This document shows positions 41,767 through 46,697 of a stretch of 64,000 nucleotides of DNA, in pieces (position 1 is the first letter of the stretch; every line of letters begins with the position of its first letter). This DNA comes from an uncultured Acidimicrobiales bacterium (lineage in GTDB: Bacteria > Actinomycetota > Acidimicrobiia > Acidimicrobiales > SZUA-35). The translations under genes and the position numbers were made by a program. The notes beneath the pieces were generated by a model. That model made no database searches. It was not told the origin of the DNA and saw only the letters and a list, made by a program, of their open reading frames with translations. Location: assembly GCA_937925335.1 (NCBI GenBank), contig CALEWY010000008.1, positions 126,066 to 190,065 of the forward strand. Direction: 5' to 3'.

Positions 41767-42320
41767 GCGACGGTCTGATCATCGTCGTGTCCGGCCCTGG
41801 CGGGGTTGGGAAAGGCACGGTGGTGGCCGCGCTCGTCGAGGCATACCCCGACGAGTTCTGGCTCAGCCGTTCGTGGACGACGCGCGAGCAGCGTCCAGGT
41901 GAAGCCGACGATGCGTACGTCTTCGTCAGCCGGGAGGCGTTCGTCGACCGAATCGAACGTGGCGGGTTCTTGGAATTCGCCGAGTTTCTCGGCAACTACT
42001 ACGGAACCCCGATTCCTGAAGCGCCCGATGGACGCGACCTCATTTTGGAGATCGACGTTCAGGGAGCACGCCAGGTCGTTGCGCTCGAGAACGACCCGCT
42101 GCTGATCTTTCTCTCCGCTCCGTCGGCCGAAGAACAAGAAGCTCGATTGCGTCATCGGGGTGATCCCGAGGACAAGGTCGCTCAGCGCTTGTCGAAGGCC
42201 AGAGAAGAAGCCGATGCCGGGGCTGAACTCGGTGCGACACAAATTACGAACATTTCCATCGACGACACCGTCCAACAGATGATGGACGTGATTCGAGCGG
42301 CTCGGCCCGCATCGACCTAG
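41763..42320 (+). CDS. gmk: Guanylate kinase, probable CTG start
   Basis: SDGLIIVVSGPGGVGKGTVV; LSRSWTTREQRPGE; LILEIDVQGARQV. GTG at 41787 would remove the strand before the P-loop. Confidence 0.92.
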   Translation: MSDGLIIVVSGPGGVGKGTVVAALVEAYPDEFWLSRSWTTREQRPGEADDAYVFVSREAFVDRIERGGFLEFAEFLGNYYGTPIPEAPDGRDLILEIDVQGARQVVALENDPLLIFLSAPSAEEQEARLRHRGDPEDKVAQRLSKAREEADAGAELGATQITNISIDDTVQQMMDVIRAARPAST

Positions 42321-42335
42321 TCGAGGGAACCCCCT

Positions 42336-45065
42336 GTGGCGGGCAACTGGAACATTGCGGTTGATTTTGGAACAACGTCGACGGTCGCGGCCGTCCACGA
42401 GTCCGGTCGCGAACCTCAGGTTCTCGAAATAGCGGGTCATCGTCGAATGCCGTCGATGGTCTTCGTCGACGATCAGGATCGGATTCTTGTCGGGCAGGTG
42501 GCGGCCGACCTCGCACTCGGCAATCCCGGTCGGAGCCTGCGAGATCTGAAGAGCCGCCTTGGTCAGCCCGCTCCGATCGTCCTTGGTGGCCGGCCGTACC
42601 GAGCAATCGATCTCGTCGCCGAGGTATTGCGAGCAGTGTTGGCCGAGGCTGTCCGCTACTACGACTCGCAGCCTGTCGAGACGAGACTGACGCACCCTGC
42701 GACCTGGAGCCGGGCTCGCCGAGAAGCGCTGCTCGAGGCCGCAAACCTCGCCGGCTTGCCCCGCCCGCAGCTGATCCCAGAGCCGGTTGCAGCGGCACTG
42801 ACCTACGTCGAGACGGTCGGTGTTCCTGCGGGTTCGCACGTGGCGGTTTTCGATCTCGGTGGCGGCACGTTCGACACCGCAGTCCTGCGGCGGACCGCCG
42901 AGGGCTTCGAGGTCGTCGGGCGCCCCATCGGCGACGGCGCCATCGGTGGTGAACTCTTCGACGAGATCGTGATGAACCTCGTCGGTGAGCAGCTGGCACC
43001 CGAGGCCTGGGATCAACTGACGGCGTCGGACGACCCTGCGTGGCGCCAATCGGCAGCCCGGTTTCGCAGCGACTGCAAACGAGCCAAGGAGGCGGTTTCG
43101 GCCCACGAGTTCGGCCAACTGACGATCAGCACGCCGATTGGCCAGTCCTCCGCTCGGATCACCCGAGACGACGTTGAGGCCTCCGTCGAGGTGCACATTG
43201 ACGAAGCGGTCGAACTCCTCGAACGATGTGTGGCGCAGGCCGGCATCGACGGCTCGGAGTTGGCGGCGGTCTTCGTCGCCGGTGGTGCGAGTCGAATGCC
43301 GATCGCGAAGCGCAAGCTCGACGCGGCTTTTCCTGATGTTCGAGTGAGCACACAGGGTGATCCAAAGGCGGCGGTCGCCTATGGCGCATTGCTCGGCTCG
43401 CCGGGACGAGCCACGGCCGGAGACGCCGCCGCGTCGAGCACTCTCGTCGATGCCGCCCAAACCCCGGCTGTCTCGACTCCGGCCGCTCAAGCTCCGGTTG
43501 CCCCCCAACGGCCCGCTTCAACCAAACGACCAGCGGGTGCCGCAACGACGGTCGAAGGACTGGCTGGGGCGCCACTCGCAGCGCCGGTCGATCCGGCCCG
43601 TGATCGCGCCGCCACCGCACGTTCGGGCGGGCGGGCACGAATCCTTGCTGCCGCCGGCGTTGGGGTCGTCATGCTCGTCGGTTTGATCGGCGGGCTGATC
43701 TGGAACTCGCAACGAGGTGCCTCGCTGGAGAGCGCTCGATCGAGCACGACTGCGGAACCCGATCCACCACAGACCACGATTGCGTCGGATCCGGTTGAAC
43801 CGTCACCCTCGACGTCTCCCGCCGAGGGCACCGAGGAATCAGCGGCCCTCGACGAGCCGTCCGTCGAGCCTCCTATCGCGCCGTCGCTCGCAGGCACCAC
43901 GGTTACAGTGTTTGCCATCGATCGGGGCGACGTTGATGCGACGGCGTTCCAGGCAGCTCTTGATGAGTTCGCAGCTGACAACTCGATGACGATCAACCTC
44001 GAGCGCACTCGTGATATCGAGGGTGAGATCGAGGCTCGAGTTGGGAATGGGACCACACCGGACATCGGCATCTATCCGGGCAACAAGTTCCTCTTCGGCG
44101 CTGCTCGTGCAGGTTTCCTCGAGCCGATCCCCGAAGCCGTGGCCGCTCAATCCGACTGGAGCGATCCCTTCGTCTCATTGGGTTTGATCGATGGCGTGCA
44201 GCAGGCGTTGCCCCTCCGAGCCGACCCAAAATCGCTCATCTGGTATCGGCCAACCGCGTTCGAAGCCAGGGGCTACGACGTGCCGACCACGTGGGACGGG
44301 TTCATCGCGCTCACCGCGCAGATGTTGGCGAACGGCGACACGCCGTTGTGCGTTGGCATCGAGTCCGGAGCGGCCACCGGTTGGGTGTACACGGACTGGG
44401 TCGAGGGCCTCGTGCTCGGCCTCGATGGTGCCGACGTTTACGACCAGTGGGCGAACCACGAGATTCCGTTCAACGACCCTCGAGTCGTTTCCCATATGGA
44501 ATCCGTGATCGACCTCTGGAGCCAGCCTGGCGCCGTCTTCGGTGGCCGAGAATCGATTGCCTCGACGAATTTCGGCGTGATCGATCCGCTGCTCAGCGAT
44601 GACTGCCTGATGCATCGACAGGCAGCGCTCTACGCGGGTTCGATCGGGCCCGACCAGTCCTTCGATCTGTTCGCTGTGCCGGCCAACACCGGGCAACCGC
44701 TCATCGTGGCCGGCGACATGATGACCGCATTCGATGATCGGCCCGAGGTGTGGGCGGTTATCGACTACATGGGGTCTGCCGAGTTCGGCGACGCGTTCCG
44801 ACGAGCGCAGAACGAGCTCGACGGGATTTTCGCCCCTGGTTTTGTGAGTGCAGCCGACGGCATCGACGTCACGCTGTATGACATCTACGGCGCGGCGATG
44901 ATCGACACCATGCGCAGCGCAGATGTTGTTCGATTCGATGCTTCGGACCTCATGCCGGCCGAGGTTGGTCTCGGATCGTTCTGGGCCCAGGGCGCGGCGA
45001 TCGTCACCGGCGAGGCGACACCGAGCGAAGCCGCGGCCACCGTTGAATCGACCTGGCCGCCCTAG
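42336..45065 (+). CDS. Membrane fusion protein: Hsp70/DnaK-like ATPase - TM - extracellular AglE-like ABC solute-binding domain
   Basis: VDFGTTSTVAAVH, FDLGGGTFDTAVL, VFVAGGASRMP (Hsp70 ATPase motifs); TM ILAAAGVGVVMLVGLIGGLIW; SBP motifs KSLIWYRPTAFEARGYDVPTTWDGFIAL and CVGIESGAATGWVYTDWVEGLVL. Confidence 0.9.
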   Translation: MAGNWNIAVDFGTTSTVAAVHESGREPQVLEIAGHRRMPSMVFVDDQDRILVGQVAADLALGNPGRSLRDLKSRLGQPAPIVLGGRPYRAIDLVAEVLRAVLAEAVRYYDSQPVETRLTHPATWSRARREALLEAANLAGLPRPQLIPEPVAAALTYVETVGVPAGSHVAVFDLGGGTFDTAVLRRTAEGFEVVGRPIGDGAIGGELFDEIVMNLVGEQLAPEAWDQLTASDDPAWRQSAARFRSDCKRAKEAVSAHEFGQLTISTPIGQSSARITRDDVEASVEVHIDEAVELLERCVAQAGIDGSELAAVFVAGGASRMPIAKRKLDAAFPDVRVSTQGDPKAAVAYGALLGSPGRATAGDAAASSTLVDAAQTPAVSTPAAQAPVAPQRPASTKRPAGAATTVEGLAGAPLAAPVDPARDRAATARSGGRARILAAAGVGVVMLVGLIGGLIWNSQRGASLESARSSTTAEPDPPQTTIASDPVEPSPSTSPAEGTEESAALDEPSVEPPIAPSLAGTTVTVFAIDRGDVDATAFQAALDEFAADNSMTINLERTRDIEGEIEARVGNGTTPDIGIYPGNKFLFGAARAGFLEPIPEAVAAQSDWSDPFVSLGLIDGVQQALPLRADPKSLIWYRPTAFEARGYDVPTTWDGFIALTAQMLANGDTPLCVGIESGAATGWVYTDWVEGLVLGLDGADVYDQWANHEIPFNDPRVVSHMESVIDLWSQPGAVFGGRESIASTNFGVIDPLLSDDCLMHRQAALYAGSIGPDQSFDLFAVPANTGQPLIVAGDMMTAFDDRPEVWAVIDYMGSAEFGDAFRRAQNELDGIFAPGFVSAADGIDVTLYDIYGAAMIDTMRSADVVRFDASDLMPAEVGLGSFWAQGAAIVTGEATPSEAAATVESTWPP

Positions 45066-45098
45066 CGATTGACGTGAGGCAGAGCGCCGGTCTCGGAA

Positions 45099-45731
45099 CT
45101 AGCCGACGAACCCGGCTCGCGGTGTGGCCGCAGGGACCTGCCAGTCCGTTGGCATGGCCTCAAAGCTGAAGAACGGCGCTTCGTCGCCGGCCTCAATGGC
45201 ATCTTCGATCTGGTCGTAAAAGCCTTTGCCGGTCTCTTCTGCGAAGGTGATCGCCACGTCTTCGGTATCAGTTGGAGATGGGCGCTGGCAGTATTCAGGG
45301 AAGCTGTTTTCAGCGGCATCACCCTCGGCGTAGCCACGGGCGAACATCTGCTTGAGGATGCCGAATCCGTCATGGCGGGTCAGGATCTCGCCGCGTGGTG
45401 TTCCGCCATAGCTCTTCAACCGAAAAGCGAACGCGTCCAGATCGTGGGTGTCGTAGGCGATGTGCTGGCACGAGTGGTCGCCGTGTCGGTCGACAAACTT
45501 CGTGACCTGGCTCTTCTTGGCCCGGTCGATGCCTTCGATCAAGGCAACGCCGAAGCCTCCAAAATCGATGCACCAGATTTTCATCGACGAATCGGGATCG
45601 TCCGGGCGAACGTCATCGATCCGATTGATCAGGGTGCCGCCCTCAACCTCGATGTGAAACCACGCCCAACGTTCGATGCTGCCAAGCTCACAGGCGTAAG
45701 TGATGTGGTCGACGGCTTTGAGGTGAGACAT
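45099..45731 (-). CDS. VOC/4-hydroxyphenylpyruvate dioxygenase-like protein (short form)
   Basis: KAVDHITYACE; IDFGGFGVALIEGIDR; DHSCQHIAYDTHDLDAFAFRLKSYGG; ILKQMFARGY. Confidence 0.75.
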   Translation of the reverse strand: MSHLKAVDHITYACELGSIERWAWFHIEVEGGTLINRIDDVRPDDPDSSMKIWCIDFGGFGVALIEGIDRAKKSQVTKFVDRHGDHSCQHIAYDTHDLDAFAFRLKSYGGTPRGEILTRHDGFGILKQMFARGYAEGDAAENSFPEYCQRPSPTDTEDVAITFAEETGKGFYDQIEDAIEAGDEAPFFSFEAMPTDWQVPAATPRAGFVG

Positions 45732-45845
45732 GCCCGTAGGTAATCAAACCGTTGACAACACCACAAGAACCGGGAACACTTCGATCAGCTCGGCGGCAAC
45801 AGCTTTACGTTTTGTTCAAATCTTTCCATCTGGAGTGCAGTCGAC

Positions 45846-46322
45846 ATGAGCACATCGCAACGGCCCCTCGACGCTACCGATCTTCGCCTGTTGTCAGCAT
45901 TGCGGCTCTCGCCGCGAGCCTCGCACACCGAACTGGCCCGCACGGTCGGGATCGCACGAGGCACCTTGTACTCACGGCTCGACAGGCTTGAAACGGAAGG
46001 TGTGATCGTCGGCTTTGGCCCTGATGTCGACCCGGTAAAGGCAGGTTTCGACGTCTTGGCGTTCACCACACTCGAGATCCAGCAAGGTTCATACGACGAG
46101 ACCGTCGCTGCGCTCGGGAAGGTGTTGGAGATTCTCGAGATCCACACGGTGACCGGCACGGGCGACCTGTTGTGTCGCATCGTGGCTCGCTCGAATGATC
46201 ACCTGCACGTCGTGTTGCAAGAGATCACCGCCGTCCCATCGGTGTTGCGAACACAAAGCCAGCTGGCACTCGCAACGAGCGTTCGGCGCTCACTGATCGA
46301 GGTCTTGAACTCATCGTCCTAA
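45846..46322 (+). CDS. Lrp/AsnC family transcriptional regulator
   Basis: LDATDLRLLSALRLSPRASHTELARTVGIARGTLYSRLDRLETEGVI HTH plus RAM domain. Confidence 0.92.
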   Translation: MSTSQRPLDATDLRLLSALRLSPRASHTELARTVGIARGTLYSRLDRLETEGVIVGFGPDVDPVKAGFDVLAFTTLEIQQGSYDETVAALGKVLEILEIHTVTGTGDLLCRIVARSNDHLHVVLQEITAVPSVLRTQSQLALATSVRRSLIEVLNSSS

Positions 46323-46436
46323 CCGTGGTGCCGATGGCTCCCAAGGGAAACGTGAGCCGCTACGCTTCTGTGCTGGCCGTTCTAGGCTGTCGTGCGGACG
46401 GTTTCCGCCGAAACGATCTACCCGAAGGTGTGCACT

Positions 46437-46697
46437 GTGACTGACGACTCGATGATGTGGCCCCAGGTCGAAGGCCTGATGGACAAGGTCGGCTCGAAGT
46501 TCGCCCTCTGCACGCTGGCATCGACTCGTGCTCGTGAGATCAACGCCTACTTCGGTCAGCTCGGCGAAGGCCTCGGCTCGATGGTGCCGCCGCAGGTCAC
46601 CTCGATGGCTCGCAAGCCGCTCAGCATCTCGTTCGAAGAGATCGCCGTCGACAAGATCGTTCCGGTTCGCCCGGATCCTGACGCCAGCGCCGCCTGA
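46437..46697 (+). CDS. rpoZ: DNA-directed RNA polymerase omega subunit
   Basis: MDKVGSKFALCTLASTRAREINAYF; ARKPLSISFEEIAVDKI; upstream of coaBC. GTG at 46437 inferred. Confidence 0.92.
   Translation: MTDDSMMWPQVEGLMDKVGSKFALCTLASTRAREINAYFGQLGEGLGSMVPPQVTSMARKPLSISFEEIAVDKIVPVRPDPDASAA

Follow-up and report, generated by a model that had tools for sequence, protein, structure and literature searches.

A gene in an uncultured Acidimicrobiales bacterium joins an Hsp70-type ATPase, through a single transmembrane (TM) helix, to an extracellular solute-binding protein (SBP) domain. This Hsp70-SBP fusion, found in the 64,000-nucleotide stretch of DNA that we analyzed (the window), is real and unusual. 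Our preferred reading, which we hold with slightly better than even confidence, is that it would be a single-pass transmembrane receptor in which an exchangeable, importer-derived ectodomain is paired with an Hsp70-fold ATPase as the cytoplasmic module.

The initial annotation described one continuous open reading frame of about 909 amino acids, and this proved correct: the frame begins with GTG, is uninterrupted by any internal stop, and occurs in full length only once in its genome (Table 1). Pfam searches recovered both proposed halves, with matches to HSP70 (4.8e-39) and SBP_bac_1 (2.3e-14) that each lie far over the gathering cut-off. A frameshift or assembly error had been named as an alternative; the frame is intact, and a second Hsp70-SBP fusion in a congener (L009, below) speaks against a chimera. 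The TM helix anticipated at about 43640-43705 corresponds to residues 436-454, flanked by the expected Pro/Ala/Thr-rich linker and Ser/Thr/Glu/Pro-rich stalk, both evident from composition, and the linker of about 80 residues is probably disordered. Helix and topology were called from hydropathy alone; since five lysines or arginines lie in the 15 residues before the single helix and two follow it, the ATPase is predicted to lie inside and the SBP outside. Together with the Pfam domains, this supports the topology first suggested, namely a cytoplasmic ATPase, a TM helix, and an outside ligand-binding domain.

Table 1. Features of the fusion gene and its surroundings (window positions)
Feature	Position	Strand	Basis
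gmk, core-operon neighbor upstream	41787..42320	+	Pfam Guanylate_kin 7e-30; synteny
Whole fusion gene: Hsp70 nucleotide-binding domain (NBD), linker, TM, stalk, SBP; 909 aa	42336..45065	+	Single ORF; Pfam HSP70 and SBP_bac_1
Cytoplasmic Hsp70 NBD, residues 1-355 (predicted side)	42336..43400	+	Pfam, PDB sequence match, alignments
Pro/Ala/Thr-rich cytoplasmic linker, residues 356-435	43401..43640	+	64% P/A/T/S/Q
Predicted single TM helix, residues 436-454, N-in/C-out	43641..43697	+	Hydropathy, flanking K/R counts (positive-inside rule)
Extracellular S/T/E/P-rich stalk, residues 455-514, acidic	43698..43877	+	Composition
Extracellular family-1 solute-binding domain, residues 515-909 (predicted side)	43878..45062	+	Pfam, PDB sequence and profile searches
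Residues 582-589, in place of importer motif QPGK-ADF; aligned with E. coli MalE AHDRF	44079..44102	+	Profile alignment
VOC/HPPD-like gene	45099-45731	-	NCBIfam 4HPPD 1e-6, far under cut-off
Lrp/AsnC regulator gene	45846-46322	+	
rpoZ, downstream edge of insertion	46392..46697	+	Pfam RNA_pol_Rpb6 5e-11; synteny

The N-terminal half matches Pfam HSP70 over residues 85-352 and also over a stretch at the N-terminus; its PDB sequence matches are DnaK structures (phmmer, 3e-33). As actin-fold kin, it also matches MreB_Mbl, barely over the cut-off. We aligned the head with DnaK and with 18 other Hsp70-TM heads. Residues D10, T13, T14, K72, E149, D173, G175, T178, and D180 fall at DnaK D8, T11, T12, K70, E171, D194, G196-198, T199, and D201, which, G196-198 aside, are catalytic or phosphate-contact residues of DnaK. 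Every ATP-site residue checked is thus retained in the fusion head, and these positions are identical or Ser/Thr-equivalent in 19 of 19 Hsp70-TM heads compared.

With DnaK/Hsp70 chaperones (PF00012) the head shares the NBD fold, the phosphate and catalytic residues, and equivalents of P143 and R151. In contrast to those chaperones, the fusion is membrane-anchored and lacks both the peptide-binding domain and the conserved interdomain linker (VLLLDV-type). The absence of the DnaK substrate-binding domain had been noticed at the outset; indeed, the HSP70 match stops by residue 352, after which come the Pro-rich linker, the TM helix, and the SBP. In DnaK, R167, N170, and T173 are J-domain contacts. 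The alignment with the 18 heads places Q145, P148, and V151 at these positions, which are not retained and vary among Hsp70-TM heads. The fusion protein scores 136 against the NCBIfam DnaK model, for which the cut-off is 648. We expect that the head would bind ATP, and probably hydrolyze it, and that it would not be a DnaJ-dependent chaperone.

The C-terminal ~390 amino acids, first taken for an ABC solute-binding protein of family 1 or 8, could be assigned to family 1. SBP_bac_1 covers residues 537-710, the closest solved proteins are AcbH (7e-13) and BxlE (3e-12) by phmmer against the PDB, and a family profile of 13 rows lifted the PDB matches to 5e-21 for BxlE and 6e-21 for RafE. An AlphaFold model of the domain, made from an alignment of two rows, had a pLDDT of 39 and was set aside. 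The nearest relatives are lipobox ('AAAC') lipoproteins of the same bacterial family, 45-53% identical, and the domain thus traces back to a binding lipoprotein that served a sugar ABC importer. Homology to family-1 sugar SBPs (AcbH, BxlE, RafE, and the AglE/MalE type) extends over the whole domain. Unlike those importer proteins, the fusion has a changed PQPGK-ADF motif and no permease partner, and its N-terminus bears neither a signal peptide nor a lipobox, the hydrophobic helix being internal.

Importer operons in relatives start with the SBP, followed by a MalF-like permease and then MalG. The operon in G033 additionally contains a MalK-type ATPase, a GH13 glycosidase, and a LacI regulator, and a ROK protein lies near the operon in G012. 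By their gene content, these operons support a putative alpha-glucoside or malto-oligosaccharide ancestry of the SBP. The MalF-like permeases themselves (L051:5059-8070, L053:3355-6216, and L052:7570-10425) are 950-1000 amino acids long, far over the usual MalF size, and are predicted to have about 20 TM segments.

Across 26 importer lipoproteins, 119 positions are conserved in 92% or more of the sequences, and we took these as importer-conserved. The fused SBP in the window retains 86 of these near-invariant positions, which argues that it is not decaying, and its counterpart in the congener G006 retains 98. In both Hsp70 fusions one and the same importer block, PQPGK-ADFAR (residues 581-591), is largely gone; a profile alignment places this block over AHDRF of MalE. 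That MalE segment contains the maltose contacts D65 and R66. Since the block over these contacts is changed, ligand preference may have shifted. Both fusions may bind their ligand differently or no longer at all, and the label 'alpha-glucoside' for the ligand of the window protein may be wrong. The window SBP also sits on a long branch of the SBP tree (1.15), which could reflect relaxed constraint.

The second fusion, in G006, is an Hsp70-TM-SBP protein of 904 amino acids with 40% overall identity to the first. It lies at a different site, beside ssb-, rpsR-, and dnaB-like genes, and its head belongs to a different deep clade: forcing both NBDs together costs 52 log units and is rejected (p-AU 1.3e-4). 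The two fused SBPs are both placed near the importer lipoproteins of the genus, and their grouping in a single clade has a p-AU of 0.46. Because a joint clade of the two NBDs is rejected, it appears that the SBP was paired with an Hsp70-TM head twice or that the ectodomain jumped between heads. The G006 ortholog of the window head (64% identical; L048, L050:1-675, G006:C629) ends at a contig end.

Carriers of the fusion amount to two of the five genomes of one genus, G006 and the window genome (G000). Beyond these two we found none among 39 genomes of the family, nor, using SBP-only queries, in 59 genomes of the order and 61 of the phylum; among 72,556 plasmid records, nothing covered 80% of the query. 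Long SBP frames in G040, G146, and G104 (860-1062 amino acids) were rejected as fusions, being GC-rich non-coding read-through ahead of an ordinary lipoprotein start, and L038 of G005 (843 amino acids) was likewise discarded as frame read-through. The established role of Hsp70 ATPases is that of chaperones, and SBPs are known as parts of transporters or as sensor domains. In the open-access literature that we searched, neither Hsp70-TM receptors nor Hsp70-SBP fusions are described. As far as we searched, then, the component parts are of known kinds, and their combination, like Hsp70-TM heads with exchangeable ectodomains, is undescribed.

The window genome encodes seven further Hsp70-TM heads that lack a substrate-binding domain and carry outside parts other than the SBP, of more than one kind. 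An outside domain of about 190 amino acids is common to L002, L004, and the congeners' L010-L012. Pfam identifies a BON ectodomain in L006 and L036 and an FGE-sulfatase ectodomain in L037, with relatives among carriers of BON/FGE-sulfatase ectodomains; the remaining Hsp70-TM ectodomains have no Pfam match, and L007 has its TM helix at the C-terminus. Hsp70-TM proteins with FGE-sulfatase-type ectodomains (L037:1495-4257, L093:5863-11649, L094) often occur as tandem pairs or triplets. The gene for L002 (locus L086) adjoins a Ser/Thr kinase gene, with an FHA protein nearby, and no paralog ectodomain was found on a kinase among the loci examined. At another locus (L091:3580-9819; genes named by eye), an Hsp70 protein with an extreme C-terminal TM helix is followed, in apparent operon order, by MoxR-type ATPase, DUF58-like, and multi-TM genes. 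The head type reaches beyond this order, since a Nonomuraea gene (L134) has a head 42% identical to ours, followed by TM helices. Actinobacterial genes of this kind, named 'Hsp70 family protein', share with the fusion an NBD without a substrate-binding domain, then a Pro-rich linker and a TM helix, whereas their ectodomain is different or missing.

The SBP family also occurs without Hsp70. Three proteins of 1577-1876 amino acids from the same bacterial family, L040 (1879-6609), L041 (1008-5891), and L042 (2677-8304), combine BTAD, kinase-like, and nSTAND1 domains with a TM helix and an SBP. As in the fusion, the SBP is a C-terminal ectodomain behind the TM helix; in contrast, the head is a transcription-regulator/STAND (SARP-type) module rather than Hsp70, and the SBPs are only ~30% identical. 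The presence of a member of this SBP family on BTAD-nSTAND DNA-binding regulator heads makes what we regard as the strongest circumstantial case that the fused module would act in sensing.

We favor a receptor role for the fusion, given that related heads exchange their ectodomains and that SBPs of this family also top BTAD-nSTAND regulators. The retained ATP site, the importer-conserved positions kept in the SBP, and the Ser/Thr kinase gene next to L002 point the same way. The layout predicted from sequence is that of a one-TM receptor, with a cytoplasmic catalytic domain, one TM helix, and an outside sensor. In such a receptor, the SBP would close on a small carbohydrate, and this closure, or altered clustering, would reach the Hsp70-type ATPase by way of the stalk and TM helix. 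The heads would then change nucleotide state or spacing, and the changed nucleotide state could recruit or release a cytoplasmic partner. As a Pro-rich linker of this length makes a poor rigid lever, coupling would require clustering or avidity, which disorder of the linker would favor. PknB-type Ser/Thr kinases combine a cytoplasmic nucleotide-using domain, a disordered linker, one TM helix, and an exchangeable ectodomain. The fusion would share the plan of these actinobacterial kinases and differ in that its cytoplasmic domain is an Hsp70-fold ATPase and no kinase.

The main rival, which we consider unlikely though worth weighing, is a membrane scaffold. The Hsp70 head would be a nucleotide-switched module on which proteins of envelope growth or the cytoskeleton dock, and the ectodomain would bind wall or capsular polysaccharide, so that the protein links wall and cytoplasm and reports no nutrient. 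The marginal MreB_Mbl match of the head fits this proposal, as does the paralog beside MoxR-like and DUF58-like genes (L091; named by eye). Mycobacterial Rv0312/MSMEG_0692 presumably carries an Hsp70-type head as well. It is listed as ATP-binding and Pro/Thr-rich with one TM helix and as a member of the FhaA interactome (PMC11898655), which would also favor a scaffold. However, the ectodomain has its origin in an importer SBP for small sugars, not in a wall-binding domain, and the fusion gene has no neighboring cell-wall gene.

The genomic setting agrees with the earlier view of an accessory insertion in a core operon. Seven relatives have mIHF, gmk, and rpoZ in line; the gap between gmk and rpoZ is 48-142 bp in six of them and 0.95 kb in the other, against a 4.1-kb insertion here (42321-46391). 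The initial annotation was right that the fusion lies between gmk and rpoZ; to be added are the VOC/HPPD-like and Lrp/AsnC genes, which lie between the fusion and rpoZ. No dedicated cytoplasmic partner gene adjoins the fusion gene, and, as originally stated, no permease or other transporter gene is near it. The importer MalG is 93-100% identical among the congeners G004, G005, and G007, while the best matches in G000 and G006 are 36% or weaker. As these two genomes are 82% and 76% complete, respectively, absence of the orthologous permease from both is probable, not certain.

These observations weigh on a second alternative, to which we assign a low probability: that the domain still delivers to an ABC permease, with the Hsp70-TM part as a mere anchor. 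High retention of importer-conserved residues would be expected of such a tethered SBP, and the window genome does have other sugar permeases (G000:C35). Against it stand the missing orthologous permease, the relatives that manage with a lipid anchor, and a fully conserved ATP site that would be left unexplained. A recent neutral or decaying fusion, with an SBP gene fragment inserted behind an Hsp70-TM gene, would suit the confinement to two of five genomes and the accessory insertion site, but is about as improbable, given the intact 909-aa frame, an SBP that outside the conserved columns is still 44% identical to an importer SBP, and its recurrence on another Hsp70 head.

We return to the receptor reading for its wider meaning. 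We propose tentatively, at somewhat less than even confidence, that actinobacteria have a class of modular transmembrane receptors, not previously described, with an Hsp70-fold ATPase switch as output, parallel to PknB-type kinases, of which the window protein would be a carbohydrate-sensing member with an importer-derived domain. Since the ligand class of the SBP is recognizable, this member would be a convenient one to work with: once a soluble ligand is identified, one could measure directly how it affects an Hsp70 ATPase. If true, Hsp70 heads under exchangeable ectodomains would be a new ATPase switch among bacterial transmembrane outputs.
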